The position numbers and the translations under genes were made by a program. The notes below the pieces were generated by a model, which worked only from the letters and a program-made list of their open reading frames with translations, was not told the origin of the DNA and did not search any database. Positions 45,930 through 52,812 of a stretch of DNA of 64,000 nucleotides are shown one piece after another. Within the stretch, counting starts at the first letter, position 1, and every line of letters begins with the position of its first letter. The stretch covers positions 1 through 64,000 of the forward strand of contig NZ_JAFWOM010000168.1 of the NCBI RefSeq assembly GCF_017545445.1, given 5' to 3'. The stretch comes from Fibrobacter sp. GTDB taxonomy: Bacteria; Fibrobacterota; Fibrobacteria; Fibrobacterales; Fibrobacteraceae.

Positions 45930-48005
45930 ATGAAGTGTATGGGTGATGTTTTGAAGGTGACCGCTTTCGGTTTGGCTTTTTCTATTCCGGCGTTTGCTTC
46001 TACCGTGAATGTAGATGTAACTGAAGAACATCAGGTGATTCGCGGTTTTGGCGGCATGGTGCATAACGAATGGCAGGGCGGTAGCGGCCTTTCCGAAGCC
46101 GATGCAAAGCTTGCGTTCGGTACGGGTGACGGTCAGATTGGTTTGAATACGCTCCGCATTCCGGTGTATGCGAACTCCAATTCGTTTAACAAGGAAGTGA
46201 ACGCTGCAAAGTACGCTAAGAAATATGCGGGCGATGACTTTATCTTATATGCAACGCCTTGGACTTCGCCGTATGCAGGTGCGAACCAGCACATGTCTTC
46301 GTCGAACTACCAGAAGTATGTCGATCACCTGAATAACTTCAATGACTACATGAAGAATCAGGGTGTTCCTTTGTATGCAATTTCCATCAGTAACGAACCG
46401 GACTGGTGCGGCGAATGGGCTTGCTGGAGCGCCGATGAAATCTACAACTTCACCAAGGGCTATGCCGATAAGATGCGCAAGAACGGCGTCAAGGTGATTT
46501 CGACGGAGTCATTCCGCTACGACAAGAATCTTTACAACAAAGTCTTGAACGACGCCAATGCCCTCAAGAACTGGGATATTCTCGGTGCGCACTTCTATGC
46601 AAGTGACAGAAGAACCGGGGACAACTTCTTCCAATATTCTTTGGCTGACCAGAAAAAGGTCGAACGCTGGATGACGGAACACTACACCGAAAGCCAGGGC
46701 AGTGGCAACTACTGGCGCACGATTACGAATACGGGTGACCAGGCGAACGCCAACAAGCGCGATACCGTGAACGCCATGGACGTGGCTTACGAAATGCATC
46801 GCGGGCTTGTCCTCGGAAACTTCAGCCAATATACTTGGTGGTACATCCGTCGCTGCTACGGCCTCATCATGGAAAAGGACTTTGGCAACAAGCTTCAGAT
46901 TCCGCAGAACGAAATCGGCAAGGTCAGTAAGCGCGGTTACGTGATGAGCCAGTTCGCTCGCTTTATCCGCCCGGGTGCGGTCCGCGTGGGGGCTACGGCA
47001 AATCCCGAGAAGGAGGTTTTTGCATCCGCTTACAAGAGCAAGGATGGCGATAGCGTTATCGTGGTGCTCGTGAACCGCGACTATAAGAATAGCAAGACTG
47101 TAACCGTGAAGGTGCAAGGCGCCGATGTTCAGACCTTCCACATGTACACCACCAGCGAAGCAAAGAACGCCAAGGATGAAGGCGAAGTCGAGGTCAAGAA
47201 TGGCTCCGTGACGATTACGATGGATGCTGGTAATGCAATCAACAAGGACTGCATCGTGACGCTCGTGGGCGTTGGTACTCCGGCAGATCCTGTGCCGCGT
47301 GAACCGTTTGGTGGCAAGGTCGCTGAAATTCCGGGCAAGGTTGAAGCTGAAAACTTCGACATTCCGGGTACGGGCAAGGCTAACAAATCCTACTACGAAA
47401 ACGATTCCGAAGACCGTGGCGAAACGAACTACCGCGAAGGCACGGGCGTTGACATTTACAAGAAGGGTACCGGCTACGTCGTAGGCTACAACGAAGAAGG
47501 CGAATGGCTCGAATACTCCGTGAACGTGAAGGAAGCTGGCGATTATACCATGTTCGCTTCTGTCGCTACGTCTAATTCGACATCTGGTTTCTCGCTCTCT
47601 TTGGATGGCGATGTGCTTGTTGAAAATGTCGCTCTTTCGGGCTCAAGCTTTGACGAATTTACCAAGGTCAAGGCCAACGTGAAGCTCCCGGCGGGTGAAC
47701 ATATCCTCCGCATGACGGTGACGGGTTCCTGGTTCGATATCGACTACTTCAACTTTGCAAAGGGCAAGGACGCCAAGGATCCGGATGACGAAACGAATGC
47801 TTTGCGTGGCTCGGCTTTCCGCATGATGACCGGGGTCGAACATTATAGTGTCTTTGATTTGAACGGCATGCTTGTGGGCAAGTTCGAGGCTCGGGATGCG
47901 GCTGATGTGGCCCGCCTTACCAAGAATGTGGCTCGCAGGGGTGGCGTTTATTTAGTCAAGTCGCTGCGCGGCGGTAAGGCCTACCGCATCTCGGTCGTCA
48001 AATGA
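45930..48005 (+). CDS. GH30 glucuronoxylanase with CBM6 and Fibrobacter C-terminal module
   Basis: 691 residues. A signal peptide (AFA) leads to a GH30 barrel: RGFGGM.HNEWQG near the start, ISISNEPDW with E156 as acid/base, and WMTEHYTE with E250 as nucleophile. The sequence and the Arg/Tyr-containing loops fit subfamily 8 (glucuronoxylan xylanohydrolases). A beta-sandwich side domain ends about residue 455. Residues about 465-610 are a CBM6 (PGKVEAENFD...GEWLEYSVNV, W.DIDYFNF). The last 65 residues (SVFDLNGMLVGKF...GGVYLVKSL) match the C-termini of the two esterases downstream, as in the FPm-1 module of F. succinogenes. It breaks 4-O-methylglucuronoxylan; the acetyl xylan esterases would remove blocking acetates. 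Confidence 0.9.
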   Translation: MKCMGDVLKVTAFGLAFSIPAFASTVNVDVTEEHQVIRGFGGMVHNEWQGGSGLSEADAKLAFGTGDGQIGLNTLRIPVYANSNSFNKEVNAAKYAKKYAGDDFILYATPWTSPYAGANQHMSSSNYQKYVDHLNNFNDYMKNQGVPLYAISISNEPDWCGEWACWSADEIYNFTKGYADKMRKNGVKVISTESFRYDKNLYNKVLNDANALKNWDILGAHFYASDRRTGDNFFQYSLADQKKVERWMTEHYTESQGSGNYWRTITNTGDQANANKRDTVNAMDVAYEMHRGLVLGNFSQYTWWYIRRCYGLIMEKDFGNKLQIPQNEIGKVSKRGYVMSQFARFIRPGAVRVGATANPEKEVFASAYKSKDGDSVIVVLVNRDYKNSKTVTVKVQGADVQTFHMYTTSEAKNAKDEGEVEVKNGSVTITMDAGNAINKDCIVTLVGVGTPADPVPREPFGGKVAEIPGKVEAENFDIPGTGKANKSYYENDSEDRGETNYREGTGVDIYKKGTGYVVGYNEEGEWLEYSVNVKEAGDYTMFASVATSNSTSGFSLSLDGDVLVENVALSGSSFDEFTKVKANVKLPAGEHILRMTVTGSWFDIDYFNFAKGKDAKDPDDETNALRGSAFRMMTGVEHYSVFDLNGMLVGKFEARDAADVARLTKNVARRGGVYLVKSLRGGKAYRISVVK

Positions 48006-48028
48006 TTTAAATAATCCTCCTCCTAAAT

Positions 48029-48083
48029 AACCTTTTCGTCATTTTTTTTGCTGATTTAAGCGAACGGGGATGACGAGAAGGTT
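48029..48083 (+). terminator. Inverted repeat after GH30 gene
   Basis: AACCTTTTCGTCAT (48029-48042) pairs with ATGACGAGAAGGTT (48070-48083), 13 of 14 Watson-Crick and one G-T. The loop contains a run of eight T. No T run follows, so it may instead be a regulatory or REP-like palindrome. Confidence 0.5.
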
Positions 48084-48118
48084 TCTTAAAATTGTTTGTT
48101 TGGTTATGGGATATCACT

Positions 48119-49735
48119 ATGAGTGCGAAAAAACACTTTAGGAAAGCGATGGCTGTCGCAGGCGTTGCTGTCGGCTTTTCCTTGTTTGCTGTTACGGATG
48201 CCAATGCCGCTCCGGATCCGAACTTCCATATCTACATTGCTTACGGGCAATCGAACATGGAAGGTAACGCCACGAACTTTACCGACAAGGACAAAAAGGA
48301 ACATCCCCGCGTCAAGATGTTCGCGACGACGTCTTGCCCCAGGCTGAACCGCCCCACGGTGGGCGAGATGTACCCGGCCGTGCCTCCGATGTTCAAGTGT
48401 AATGCCGGCCTTTCTCCGGCTGACTGGTTTGGCCGCCACATGGCAGACTCTTTGCCGGACGTGACTATCGGTATTATCCCGGTGGCGCAAGGCGGTACGA
48501 GCATTCGTTTGTTCGATCCGGACGATTACAAGAACTACATCGCCTCTGCTGCCGACTGGCTCCAGAGCGGCGCGAAGGCTTATGGTAATGATGGTAATGC
48601 CATGGGCCGAATCATCGAAGTGGCCAAAAAGGCTCAGGAAAAGGGTGTCATCAAGGGCATCATCTTTCACCAGGGTGAAACCGATGGCGGCATGAGCAAC
48701 TGGGAACAGATTGTCAAGAAAACCTACGAGTACATGCTCAAGCAGCTGAACCTCAAAGCCGAAGAAACTCCGTTTGTCGCCGGTGAAATGGTCGATGGAG
48801 GTTCTTGCGCTGGTTTCAACTCTCGTGTGAATAACCTTTCCAAGTACATCGTGAACTTTGGCGTGGCCAGTTCCAAGGGTTACGGCAGCAAGGGTGATGG
48901 ACTCCACTTTACCGTGGAAGGCTACCGTGGCATGGGACTCCGCTATGCGCAGCAGATGCTCAAGCTCATCAATGTAGCGCCGGTGGATCCTGTTCCGCAA
49001 GAGCCGTTCAAAGGCAAGGCTATTGAAATTCCGGGCAAGATTGAAGTCGAGGATTTCGACAAGCCAGGTATTGGCAAGAACGATGATGGCACGAGTAATG
49101 CCTCGTTTAGCGACGAAGATTCCGAAAACCACGGCGATAGCGATTACCGCAAGGACACGGGCGTGGACCTGTACAAGACCGCAGATGGTGTTGCTCTGGG
49201 CTACACGCAGGTTGGCGAATGGCTCGAATATACTGTTGAAGTCATAGCTGATGGCGAATACAGCGTCGAGGCTAGTGTCGCCGCAGGCAATTCAACTTCC
49301 GCATTCAAGCTTTACATCGACGAAAAAGCCATAACGGATGAAGTTTCCGTGCCGCAGACCGCCGACAACAAGTGGGATACGTACAAGACGATAGATATCA
49401 AGGATAAGGTCGCCTTAAAGGCTGGCAAGCATGTGCTCAAGCTCGAAATTACCGCCAATTACGCGAACATCGACTGGATCCAGTTCAGCCGACTGGGCGA
49501 GGTACTGCCCTATGAAAGTATTGCAAAAGTCCGTTTTGACGCTACCGAAACAGAAAGCAACTTTAGCGTGTATAACATGCAGGGTAAAAAGCTCGGAACT
49601 TTCACCGCCAAGGGAATGGCCGCTGCGATGAACCTCGTCAAGTCCGACGCAAAACTCCGCAAGCACTCGCAGGGCGTGTTTTTCATCCGTAAAAACGGCG
49701 AATCGCACATCAAGAAGGTGGTCGTCCATGAATAA
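48119..49735 (+). CDS. CE6 acetyl xylan esterase with CBM6 and C-terminal module
   Basis: 538 residues. A signal peptide ending ANA, then an SGNH-type esterase: IYIAYGQSNMEG holds the nucleophile Ser, IIFHQGETDGG is the conserved central block, and GDGLHFTVEGY supplies Asp/His. A CBM6 follows (PGKIEVEDFDKPG, GEWLEYTVEV) and the C-terminal 70 residues end in SQGVFFIRKNGESHIKKVVVHE. It removes acetyl groups from xylan outside the cell. Two CE6-CBM6 esterases side by side are known from F. succinogenes (Axe6A/Axe6B); the match to those is by memory of the architecture. The stop overlaps a micro-ORF (ATGAATAA). Confidence 0.9.
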   Translation: MSAKKHFRKAMAVAGVAVGFSLFAVTDANAAPDPNFHIYIAYGQSNMEGNATNFTDKDKKEHPRVKMFATTSCPRLNRPTVGEMYPAVPPMFKCNAGLSPADWFGRHMADSLPDVTIGIIPVAQGGTSIRLFDPDDYKNYIASAADWLQSGAKAYGNDGNAMGRIIEVAKKAQEKGVIKGIIFHQGETDGGMSNWEQIVKKTYEYMLKQLNLKAEETPFVAGEMVDGGSCAGFNSRVNNLSKYIVNFGVASSKGYGSKGDGLHFTVEGYRGMGLRYAQQMLKLINVAPVDPVPQEPFKGKAIEIPGKIEVEDFDKPGIGKNDDGTSNASFSDEDSENHGDSDYRKDTGVDLYKTADGVALGYTQVGEWLEYTVEVIADGEYSVEASVAAGNSTSAFKLYIDEKAITDEVSVPQTADNKWDTYKTIDIKDKVALKAGKHVLKLEITANYANIDWIQFSRLGEVLPYESIAKVRFDATETESNFSVYNMQGKKLGTFTAKGMAAAMNLVKSDAKLRKHSQGVFFIRKNGESHIKKVVVHE

Positions 49736-49811
49736 AAGAGAATTGACTATCGTAAAGCAAATTGCGTTCTTTAGCATTGTGGCGGTCGTGCTAGGCCTCG
49801 TTTACGGGTAG
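49728..49811 (+). CDS. 27-residue membrane micro-protein coupled to esterase 1
   Basis: MNKRELTIVKQIAFFSIVAV + VLGLVYG. The ATG overlaps the esterase stop in ATGAATAA, and AAGGTGG inside the esterase codons serves as ribosome-binding site at a good distance. A charged N-terminus is followed by a single hydrophobic helix. A paralogue sits in the same place behind the second esterase (51810-51893). Between the two, 11 codons differ silently and 5 change the residue, which points to selection on the protein. Confidence 0.75.
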   Translation: MNKRELTIVKQIAFFSIVAVVLGLVYG

Positions 49812-49876
49812 GCTGTTTTAGATTTGTCACCCCGGCATGACAATCCTCTCTGCTTACATGGTGCTTCTCACATTTG

Positions 49877-49932
49877 TCACCCCGGATTTAGGTTGGTGAG
49901 CTTGCCGAACCATTCCGGGGTCGGCTTTTTTT
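49877..49932 (+). terminator. Terminator with CCCCGGA / TCCGGGG stem
   Basis: Perfect 7-bp stem (49880-49886 with 49914-49920) and a seven-T run. The left arm TTTGTCACCCCGG also occurs at 49823-49835, so it is part of a short repeated element. Confidence 0.7.
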
Positions 49933-49960
49933 AATGTATGGCCACACGGATTCGATTTTA

Positions 49961-50001
49961 CTAACGTAAAATCTGTCTAAGACAAAAACGTTAGCTTTTT
50001 T
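49961..50001 (+). terminator. Second terminator-like hairpin upstream of esterase 2
   Basis: CTAACGT (49961-49967) pairs with ACGTTAG (49988-49994), followed by six T. The rest of 50002-50158 shows no gene and should hold the promoter of the second esterase. Confidence 0.6.
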
Positions 50002-50158
50002 CGATAATGCGTAAGGCAATTTTTTTGCGTTTTTGGCGCGAAATGGGGGAGTTTGGCTATCGTAAAGGAGTACAACGCTAAATGGAAATTTTTTAGCGAA
50101 TTTGAAAAATTAAGGGTAATTTTAAGCATGTAAAAACAATTGGATTGAGGGCTTTTCT

Positions 50159-51817
50159 ATGAGTGTGGAAAAAAATCTCAAAAAATTAATGGTTGCCGCA
50201 GGCGTTGCTGCTGTTTTTTCCCTGTTTGCGGTTTCGGGTGCGAGTGCTGCCCCCAACCCCAATTTCCATATCTATATTGCCTATGGCCAAAGCAACATGT
50301 CAGGTAACGGCGATATCGTGCCTGCAGAGGACCAGGCTACGGATCCTAAGAATTTCATCATGCTGGCGTCGCACACGGCTAATGCGAGCCAGCGTAGCGG
50401 TCGCACCACCCAGTCCATCAAGACGGGCGAATGGTATCCGGCGATTCCCCCGATGTTCCATCCTACCGAGAACCTCTCCCCGGCGGACTATTTCGGTCGT
50501 GCGATGGTCGATTCGTTGCCGGGTGTCACCGTGGGCATTATACCTGTAGCGATAGGTGCTGTAGCCATCAAGGCTTTCGACAAGGATCAGTACAAAGCTT
50601 ATTTTAATTCTGCTGAAAGTTATATCAAGAACTGGGCGAAGGACTACGATTCCAATCCCTATCAGAGAATTGTAGATTTGGGCAAGAAGGCCAAGGAAGT
50701 GGGCGTCATCAAAGGCTTTATTTTCCATCAAGGCGAAACCGATGGTTCTGGATCAGATTGGCAGAATAATGTCTATAAGACCTACAAGGACTTTATAACG
50801 GCTCTTGAATTGGACGAAAACGAAGTGGCGTTTGTGGCGGGCGAATTGCTCCAAGAAGGCAACAACTGCTGCGGTAGCAAGAATGCCGGTATTGCCCAGC
50901 TTAAAAACAAGTTCAAGAAGTTTGGTTTGGCCTCTTCCAAGGGCTTGCAGGGCAATGGCAGGGACCCTTACCACTTTGGCCGTGCCGGCGTGATTGAACT
51001 AGGCAAACGTTACTGCTCCGAAATGCTCAAGCTTATCGATAAGACGATTGACCCGAACGCCCCGGCTGTGAACTTGGTGGATCCTACCAAATCGACGGTT
51101 CCCGATGAACCTCCCGAGGAATACGGTCCCTATGGCGATGCTCCCGCAATTATTCCTGGCACTATTGAAGCCGAAAACTATAACAAGGGCGGTGCAAACA
51201 AGGCCTATATGGACTTGAGTGAAGGCAACGAAGGGAACAAGTTCCGCAAGGATGACGTGGATATTTATCAGCCGAACATGGGTATTGCTGTTGGCCACTG
51301 CCAAAAGACGGAATGGCTCAAATATTCCGTGAAGGTGGAAGCCGATGGCGATTACGAAATTTCTGCCAAAGTGGCTGGCGATAACGGAACGGGTAGCTTT
51401 GTGCTCTATATGGACAGTGTGCGTATCGGCGATGAAATAAAGAACGAAGGAAAGGGTAATGATGTGTATTCCGTCGTGAGCGGCGGCAAGGCGACTTTGA
51501 AAAAAGGCGAACACGAATTGAAGCTCGAAATCACGAACGACTGGATTGATATCGACTACATCGAATTCAAGGCGGCAAAAGATACGGTTTCTGACGGGAT
51601 TGCTAACATCCGCATTGGCACGATCGAAGCCGAAAGCAACTTTAGCGTCTATAACATATACGGTCAAAAACTCGGCTCGTTTACCGCCAAGGGCATGGCC
51701 GATGCCATGAATTCCGTGAAGACCGATGCAAAGCTCCGCAAACAGTCCCAGGGCGTGTTCTTCATCCGCAAGGATGGCGAAAAACTCCATACGAAAAAGG
51801 TGGTTGTCCATGAATAA
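50159..51817 (+). CDS. Second CE6 acetyl xylan esterase with CBM6 and C-terminal module
   Basis: 552 residues, paralogue of the previous esterase with the same plan. Signal peptide ending ASA; GQSNMSG (nucleophile Ser), GFIFHQGETDG and GRDPYHFG (Asp/His). A CBM6 starts at PGTIEAENYNKGG. The C-terminal module ends SQGVFFIRKDGEKLHTKKVVVHE. The catalytic domains differ well beyond the tails, so the duplication is not recent. TGAGGG lies upstream of the ATG. A tandem micro-ORF overlaps its stop in the same way as in the first copy. Confidence 0.9.
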   Translation: MSVEKNLKKLMVAAGVAAVFSLFAVSGASAAPNPNFHIYIAYGQSNMSGNGDIVPAEDQATDPKNFIMLASHTANASQRSGRTTQSIKTGEWYPAIPPMFHPTENLSPADYFGRAMVDSLPGVTVGIIPVAIGAVAIKAFDKDQYKAYFNSAESYIKNWAKDYDSNPYQRIVDLGKKAKEVGVIKGFIFHQGETDGSGSDWQNNVYKTYKDFITALELDENEVAFVAGELLQEGNNCCGSKNAGIAQLKNKFKKFGLASSKGLQGNGRDPYHFGRAGVIELGKRYCSEMLKLIDKTIDPNAPAVNLVDPTKSTVPDEPPEEYGPYGDAPAIIPGTIEAENYNKGGANKAYMDLSEGNEGNKFRKDDVDIYQPNMGIAVGHCQKTEWLKYSVKVEADGDYEISAKVAGDNGTGSFVLYMDSVRIGDEIKNEGKGNDVYSVVSGGKATLKKGEHELKLEITNDWIDIDYIEFKAAKDTVSDGIANIRIGTIEAESNFSVYNIYGQKLGSFTAKGMADAMNSVKTDAKLRKQSQGVFFIRKDGEKLHTKKVVVHE

Positions 51818-51893
51818 TCGAGAAAAGGCTATTGTAAAACAAATCGCGTTCTTCTTTATTGTTGCTGTAACCCTCGGCCTCGTGTATGGGTAG
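51810..51893 (+). CDS. 27-residue membrane micro-protein coupled to esterase 2
   Basis: MNNREKAIVKQIAFFFIVAV + TLGLVYG. It overlaps the esterase stop in ATGAATAA, has AAGGTGG upstream, and matches the first copy at 22 of 27 residues while third codon positions differ freely. One hydrophobic helix, basic/charged start. The function is unknown; placement suggests a link to secretion or membrane handling of the esterases. Confidence 0.75.
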   Translation: MNNREKAIVKQIAFFFIVAVTLGLVYG

Positions 51894-51928
51894 TGGATTC
51901 TAGCGAATTGAATTTACTGCATTATTTT

Positions 51929-51962
51929 GCCCGACTCAATTAAATTTGATCGGGCTTTTTTT
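51929..51962 (+). terminator. Terminator of esterase 2 unit
   Basis: GCCCGACTCAA / TTGATCGGGC stem (one bulge) with an A/T loop and seven T. Confidence 0.85.
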
Positions 51963-51995
51963 ATTTCTTTCATATAATTTGTATATTACGTTAAA

Positions 51996-52349
51996 ATGAG
52001 AATGTTTCGCAGTTTATTGATTGTTTTCTTACTAGCCTCTTCTTTGTGGGCGAAAACCGAGTATTTTATTTTGCCTGTGCAATTGCAGGGAGTCCATGAA
52101 GATTATGCCGAAAGAATAATTTCATTGGTCAAGGAATATGCTGCTATAGATGGCTATGCCATTGTCTCCAATGAAAAAGATTGCGATTACTTGTTGCAGA
52201 TAAAATTGCTTCGCGAAGAAATCGGTGTTGCCGTTATTTTTGAAAAGAAAAAAAAGAACGATAAAGTTGTATGGTCTTATGGACACATAGCCTATACGCC
52301 GAATGATTTTATTCCTATCGTGAGCTATGTCTCGCGTGAAATAAAGTGA
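51996..52349 (+). CDS. Small exported protein, unknown function
   Basis: 117 residues (ATG 51996; a second ATG at 52002 is possible). The signal peptide ends LWA. The mature part has a Glu/Tyr-rich helix and a Lys-Lys-Lys-Lys turn. It is probably periplasmic. Not recognised. A lipoprotein gene follows 25 bases after it. Confidence 0.7.
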   Translation: MRMFRSLLIVFLLASSLWAKTEYFILPVQLQGVHEDYAERIISLVKEYAAIDGYAIVSNEKDCDYLLQIKLLREEIGVAVIFEKKKKNDKVVWSYGHIAYTPNDFIPIVSYVSREIK

Positions 52350-52374
52350 TGATTATAATAGGAACTTTGGGCGT

Positions 52375-52812
52375 ATGAATCGAATTCTTGTTTTGCTTGC
52401 TCTGTCTTTGCCGCTTGTGGGGTGCATGGGCATGATGGTGCGTGTCTCTGACGGCAGGGCTGATTATTCTATTTATAAGAATGGTTCTTTAGCTTGCACG
52501 CGAAGCGATAGCTGCGAGGTCTATGTTTCTGGTGGTGATGCTATGTATTTGGATGCTCGCCGAAATAATGTTGTCTATGGCGGTATGGCCGTTTATAGAC
52601 AGTGCAATTCTTATGAAGGGGCTTCTGGGCCTTCGTTCGTTTCTCCGACAGAAGGTGTTTTAGCTTCTTCTGTTTTGAGCGTGTTTTCTTTGACGTCTTG
52701 GGCGGCAACTGCTGGCGATTGCCGAGGCTATTTCCCTCTCGAAGTAGAAATTCCTATCGGTCCGAGAGATTCATTACAAGCGAACTATCCGTGGGAAAAA
52801 CCTATAAAGTAA
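52375..52812 (+). CDS. Small lipoprotein, unknown function
   Basis: 145 residues. A lipoprotein signal ends in LVGC. The mature part has several Cys residues (LACTRSDSCEVY, RQCNSYEG, GDCRGYF) and a Ser-rich hydrophobic middle that could be a second helix (GVLASSVLSVFSLTSWAATAG). No family is recognised. It probably shares a transcript with the gene before it. Confidence 0.7.
   Translation: MNRILVLLALSLPLVGCMGMMVRVSDGRADYSIYKNGSLACTRSDSCEVYVSGGDAMYLDARRNNVVYGGMAVYRQCNSYEGASGPSFVSPTEGVLASSVLSVFSLTSWAATAGDCRGYFPLEVEIPIGPRDSLQANYPWEKPIK

Follow-up and report, generated by a model that had tools for sequence, protein, structure and literature searches.

A 27-residue predicted membrane microprotein found as an overlapping 3' cistron of acetyl xylan esterase genes and as a free gene in Fibrobacter

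Two esterase genes and the short reading frames at their ends

The window analysed here, a stretch of 64,000 nucleotides (nt) from a Fibrobacter sp. contig (NZ_JAFWOM010000168.1, positions 1 to 64,000 of the forward strand; assembly GCF_017545445.1), carries two acetyl xylan esterase genes of carbohydrate esterase family 6 (CE6), one A-type and one B-type, each followed by a micro open reading frame (micro-ORF) that starts within its 3' end. Both micro-ORFs are intact, with 27 codons each, and the comparative evidence given below shows them to be genuine members of a microprotein gene family in Fibrobacter. The two esterase genes share the 3' end ATGAATAA, which includes the 8-nt overlap with the micro-ORF, and at both sites six bases separate the AAGGTGG motif from the ATG. 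A sequence-only reading of this DNA had described the two overlapping frames, had placed AAGGTGG inside codons of the esterase tails and had proposed that the start of translation is tied to the esterase gene: frames and motifs are found as described (Table 1), and the overlap together with the Shine-Dalgarno-like site argues for the coupling. Its codon count is likewise reproduced, with 11 codons identical, 11 silently changed and 5 replaced between the two copies, corresponding by the Nei-Gojobori method to differences at 12.8 of 18.7 synonymous and 8.2 of 62.3 nonsynonymous sites. A terminator-like element lies 3' of each micro-ORF; the loops of both exceed the limit of the hairpin scan, and the elements were found by reading the sequence directly.

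Table 1. Features of the esterase locus (positions in the window)
Feature	Position	Strand	Details
CE6 acetyl xylan esterase, A-type	48119-49735	+	SASA, CBM6 and a C-terminal tail like those of the type IX secretion system (T9SS)
AAGGTGG, Shine-Dalgarno-like	49715-49721	+	within Lys-Val-Val codons of the A-type esterase tail
micro-ORF 1, MNKRELTIVKQIAFFSIVAVVLGLVYG	49728-49811	+	8-nt overlap with the esterase end; profile E = 6.9e-16
CCCCGGA...TCCGGGG (long loop), then T-run	49880-49933	+	terminator-like, 3' of micro-ORF 1; read directly
CE6 acetyl xylan esterase, B-type	50159-51817	+	SASA, CBM6 and a basic C-terminal tail
AAGGTGG, Shine-Dalgarno-like	51797-51803	+	within Lys-Val-Val codons of the B-type esterase tail
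micro-ORF 2, MNNREKAIVKQIAFFFIVAVTLGLVYG	51810-51893	+	8-nt overlap with the esterase end; profile E = 1.1e-14
GCCCGA...TCGGGC, then TTTTTTT	51929-51962	+	terminator-like, 3' of micro-ORF 2; read directly

Distribution, selection and protein anatomy

A protein search followed by a profile of 40 members retrieves 130 intact relatives from 64 of 80 Fibrobacter genomes, every one with a profile E below 1e-9 and none with an internal stop; most of the genomes surveyed appear to be metagenome-assembled, and the ORFs around the copies were called by a simple rule. An early tally of 75 of 80 genomes included 11 false ones, in which a 32-residue match (MVALLSAV...FVFGRGG) was rejected as half of a different, two-helix protein; two matches in another genome (G054) were also rejected, being weak and embedded in long frames of 312 and 980 codons. 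Outside Fibrobacter, the sole clear relative among 168 genomes of the phylum is MSNSEIRIIKQIAVMGLLVVILGMLFS, from another genus of the same family (G159; profile E 8.6e-6), which starts 11 nt inside the 3' end of the gene for a 580-residue CE6 esterase. No convincing family match was found in Pfam or NCBIfam for any of the 40 members, and no description of the microprotein was found in the open-access literature, whose silence is no proof of novelty; on these searches, it appears to be a new microprotein family.

Two side observations emerged from these searches. The protein behind the false matches is itself conserved (MKQKLPGIIFLLAMPCSVLLFVQVEKWSGSE...FVFGRGG...NRR, about 60 residues and two helices, the 32-residue match being its C-terminal half), occurs in 11 Fibrobacter genomes that have no member of the microprotein family (loci L148-L157 and L165; for example L149, G061:C13:72640-72708), and in most of them is encoded shortly downstream of a GH10 xylanase gene. 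Moreover, a contig filed under Fretibacterium sp. (JAILIX010000058.1, L206) holds a CE6 fragment 95% identical to that of the window and is probably a misbinned Fibrobacter contig.

The copies fall into three arrangements: 61 are coupled to a CE6 gene, nine stand behind a GH43 gene (3-nt gap) and 60 are free. The ratio of nonsynonymous to synonymous differences (pN/pS) is 0.25 for the esterase-coupled, 0.23 for the free and 0.18 for the GH43-linked copies, and the nonsynonymous rate (dN) is below the synonymous rate (dS) in every one of the 1018 within-class pairs of moderate divergence (747 of 747 coupled, 260 of 260 free, 11 of 11 GH43-linked); these pairs share ancestry and are not independent, and the direction never reverses. 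Sequence comparison thus indicates purifying selection on the microprotein in every class, in line with the selection at the protein level proposed from the two window copies. In a protein tree, coupled and free copies cluster without forming two clean clades, 27 columns being too few.

Among 102 distinct sequences L22, G23 and Y26 are invariant, position 10 is always Lys or Arg and position 11 always Gln or His, while A19 is Ala in 92% and G27 is Gly in 96%; the C-terminus reads L-G-[FL]-x-Y-G, nearly all members sharing the [F/L]xYG end. Residues 12-26 have a mean Kyte-Doolittle value of 2.6-2.7, and charged residues lie at positions 2-11, with a mean of 0.05 beyond residue 11. Because hardly any charge lies beyond position 11, the natural reading is a single predicted membrane helix with the N-terminus inside and the C-terminus outside, consistent with the membrane protein expected by the sequence-only reading. 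The predicted hydrophobic helix is short, 19 residues even when K10 and Q11 are counted, and contains the pattern A19-x3-G23-x3-G27; small-residue spacing of the A-x3-G-x3-G kind is typical of helix packing.

Its size, its hydrophobicity and the presence of several paralogues per genome would also suit a type I toxin, a membrane-active peptide such as TimP or TisB. The L-G-x-x-Y-G end is conserved and non-cationic, the gene is encoded in cis with enzyme genes with no visible repressor, no Rfam match lies at 48000-52500 (the scan sees known RNAs only), and the family is conserved in 64 of 80 genomes, all of which makes a toxin very unlikely. The invariant tyrosine invites a further comparison, with DltX of Dlt teichoic acid D-alanylation, likewise a single-helix microprotein with a conserved Tyr near its outer C-terminus: the Tyr would receive acyl groups from an MBOAT protein and hand them on to an SGNH enzyme, CE6 being an esterase of the SGNH type. 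In favour of such a shuttle, the [F/L]-x-Y-G end resembles the beginning of the FxYxxF motif of acyl shuttles (PMC12148441), 2 of 40 members weakly match the Pfam DltX model (PF12459; best E = 0.0052), and most genomes lacking the family have a single MBOAT match while most of those with it have two or more. Conversely, the FxYxxF motif itself is absent, the family ends one residue past the Tyr, the sister-genus homologue has no Tyr, and no Dlt-type partner was seen. Above all, the 16 Fibrobacter MBOAT proteins read (L208-L223) all end in a motif of their own (FLYFQF, FIYANF, FIYFQF, FIYGQY), as expected of self-contained acyl-shuttle acyltransferases, so that none of them needs a shuttle microprotein; on reading these C-termini a DltX-type shuttle was rejected, and we give it almost no credence.

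Coupled, GH43-linked and free copies

In the coupled class, the overlap with the CE6 end is exactly 8 nt (27 copies) or 11 nt (28 copies) in 55 of 61 cases, AAGGTGG precedes the ATG in 52 of 61, and a terminator-like hairpin lies within 200 nt past the stop in 52 of 61, as against 2 in a shuffled control; the coupled ORF is usually the last before such a hairpin. The search behind other carbohydrate-active enzyme (CAZyme) genes that the sequence-only reading had suggested finds the ORF again at other CE6 genes, and in nine genomes behind a gene assigned to GH43 from a domain match on one representative. The overlapping frames and the A-rich codons just upstream might suggest programmed frameshifting, with the ORF as a C-terminal membrane anchor of the esterase. 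An in-frame stop lies two codons ahead of the ATG in 28 of the 61 coupled copies and would confine such a fusion to the last few codons; free copies start on their own, which leaves this explanation barely conceivable.

The position at the transcript end, beside a terminator, raises the alternative of a regulatory ORF, an arrest or secretion-monitor peptide or a protection of the mRNA 3' end, in which the act of translation matters and not the product. Possibly leaderless free copies would accord with it. Specifically, a promoter-like TTACA...TA element lies upstream of 46 of 60 free copies (0.8 in shuffles) and of none of the 61 coupled ones, and in one free-copy lineage (L035, L036, L044, L046, L053 and similar loci) it reads TTACA...TATTTT, its TTACA part standing about 43 nt upstream of the ATG; because the element stands so near the ATG, the mRNA of this lineage may be leaderless. 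Against a regulatory ORF, the ORF is the last one ahead of the hairpin in most coupled copies and the next gene is on the opposite strand in one lineage, so that nothing downstream is left to attenuate; leader and arrest peptides stand upstream of the gene they control, which is not the arrangement found here; and the conservation covers the helix, alike in coupled and free copies. A role of this kind is therefore quite unlikely.

The commonest set per genome is one coupled plus one free copy, exactly so in 31 of 64 genomes. A few free copies still lie within the same CAZyme cluster, and the free copy of one genome (G014) sits behind a broken CE6 frame. Among 92 CE6 ORFs in the loci examined, 62 have a micro-ORF and 30 do not, and no remnant or decayed micro-ORF was found behind these 30; where it is missing, the esterase stop leads directly into the region that elsewhere holds the terminator. 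The A-type genes of L072, L086, L095 and L102, for instance, have no micro-ORF, in contrast to that of L073. Frameshifts or stops in orthologous esterase loci, which would have spoken against the ORF, were looked for; no disrupted copy was seen, the micro-ORF being cleanly present or cleanly absent, an outcome in favour of the sequence-only reading. Moreover, in five genomes (G022, G028, G033, G068, G092) a B-type CE6 gene located elsewhere has no ORF and the ORF stands behind the A-type gene of the cluster. These clean alternatives and the five genomes argue that the cistron comes and goes as a unit and that its tie is to the cluster more than to a single enzyme.

The same arrangements bear on the proposal, made from the window alone, that the microprotein helps the esterases. 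As a dedicated helper, it would aid the upstream CE6 or GH43 enzyme with its T9SS tail, either in export, in folding or by holding it at the membrane for a time. Consistent with this are the overlap in 55 of 61 esterase-linked copies and the same esterase-microprotein pair in the sister genus, and also the enzyme tails: that of the A-type esterase matches Por_Secre_tail with E = 7e-4, under the cut-off, and the basic C-terminal tail of Fibrobacter proteins has been proposed as a T9SS signal in a proteome study (PMC6851124). Furthermore, 60 of the 64 genomes that have the family carry a B-type CE6 (E < 1e-200), as against 1 of the 16 that lack it (Fisher p 9e-12), an association and not proof, since the test ignores ancestry and most of the genomes lacking the family may belong to a single lineage. 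Conversely, no such enzyme gene precedes 60 of the 130 copies, a separate promoter-like element lies before 46 of these 60, and the coupled copy may stand behind either CE6 paralogue, as the five genomes above illustrate; the 30 CE6 ORFs without a micro-ORF include some with similar tails. One genome (G091, 92% complete) has a free copy and no B-type CE6 gene, which shows that a free copy can do without that esterase. The T9SS component SprA occurs in 76 of 80 genomes, among them most of those without the family; since SprA is nearly universal in the genus, the T9SS was rejected as the determinant of the family's presence. The coupling to the esterase gene stands, and the general rule does not: because about half of the copies are independent of any esterase, a dedicated helper is only partly supported, and we consider it unlikely.

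Comparison with known small membrane proteins and a possible accessory role

In size, in a single predicted helix that makes up most of the interaction surface and in the absence of an enzymatic domain, the family resembles AcrZ, KdpF, CydX and MgtS of Escherichia coli. It differs from them in having no above-cut-off sequence relation (the AcrZ Pfam model, PF10766, weakly matches 2 of 40 members, best E = 0.048, which does not make the family AcrZ), in being lineage-restricted and in being coupled to genes of secreted hydrolases and not to a transporter or oxidase. The enterobacterial YohP and TimP (PMC12719787, PMC7667032) are also very small, hydrophobic and easily overlooked by gene calling; YohP is linked to stress and TimP is repressed by a small RNA, and neither is known to be tied to carbohydrate esterases, unlike the family described here. 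The esterase pair of the window has a known counterpart in the adjacent CE6-CBM6-BTD esterases of the Axe6A/Axe6B type in F. succinogenes S85 (Fisuc_1766 and Fisuc_1767; PMC3079729), where tags 1766, 1767 and 1768 are consecutive and all denote carbohydrate esterases, so that the numbering has no room for a tagged micro-ORF in between.

The explanation that we tentatively prefer, while giving it slightly less than an even chance, is that of an accessory microprotein of the inner membrane, acting in the mode of AcrZ or KdpF and translationally coupled to the esterase in the xylan cluster. Ribosomes ending the esterase would re-initiate at the overlapping ATG, and the microprotein would therefore be produced whenever the xylan cluster is expressed; it would insert as one helix with the N-terminus inside and the C-terminus outside, pack against a larger protein of the inner membrane, with A19, L22, G23, Y26 and G27 as possible contacts, and modulate that protein as AcrZ or KdpF do. 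The free copy would provide the same activity at other times. Several observations weigh against this explanation. Synteny around the family members names no partner protein, because the neighbours of the free copies vary by lineage; the conserved residues cluster only weakly on one face of the helix (shuffling gives p 0.03-0.13 according to the span taken); and the sister-genus homologue ends in MLFS and does not retain the Tyr/Gly end. A candidate partner, DUF3392, was rejected, since many genomes that have the family lack it and three that lack the family carry it. In seven genomes (L098, L100, L036, L037, L055, L110, L111) the gene for DUF3392, a membrane protein of 107 residues, follows the free copy at a distance of 24-27 nt, and in four (L166, L132, L134, L144) it lies 132-135 nt upstream of the free copy.

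An extended form of the accessory explanation, possible if rather doubtful, would have a Fibrobacteraceae-specific helix, made with each burst of esterase synthesis by re-initiation, retune a membrane machine for uptake, export or sensing, while the cistron would have moved as a clean unit between CE6 genes, GH43 genes and stand-alone promoters with the protein kept.

Fibrobacter is a main plant-fibre degrader of the rumen, and to our knowledge the control and export of its surface enzymes are poorly understood. A conserved microprotein linked to xylan esterase genes would offer an unexplored handle on this control and export. The family also provides a clear natural case of one microprotein kept in two forms, an independent gene and a 3' cistron translationally coupled to genes of secreted enzymes, and because both forms occur, its function should be testable with a few strains.

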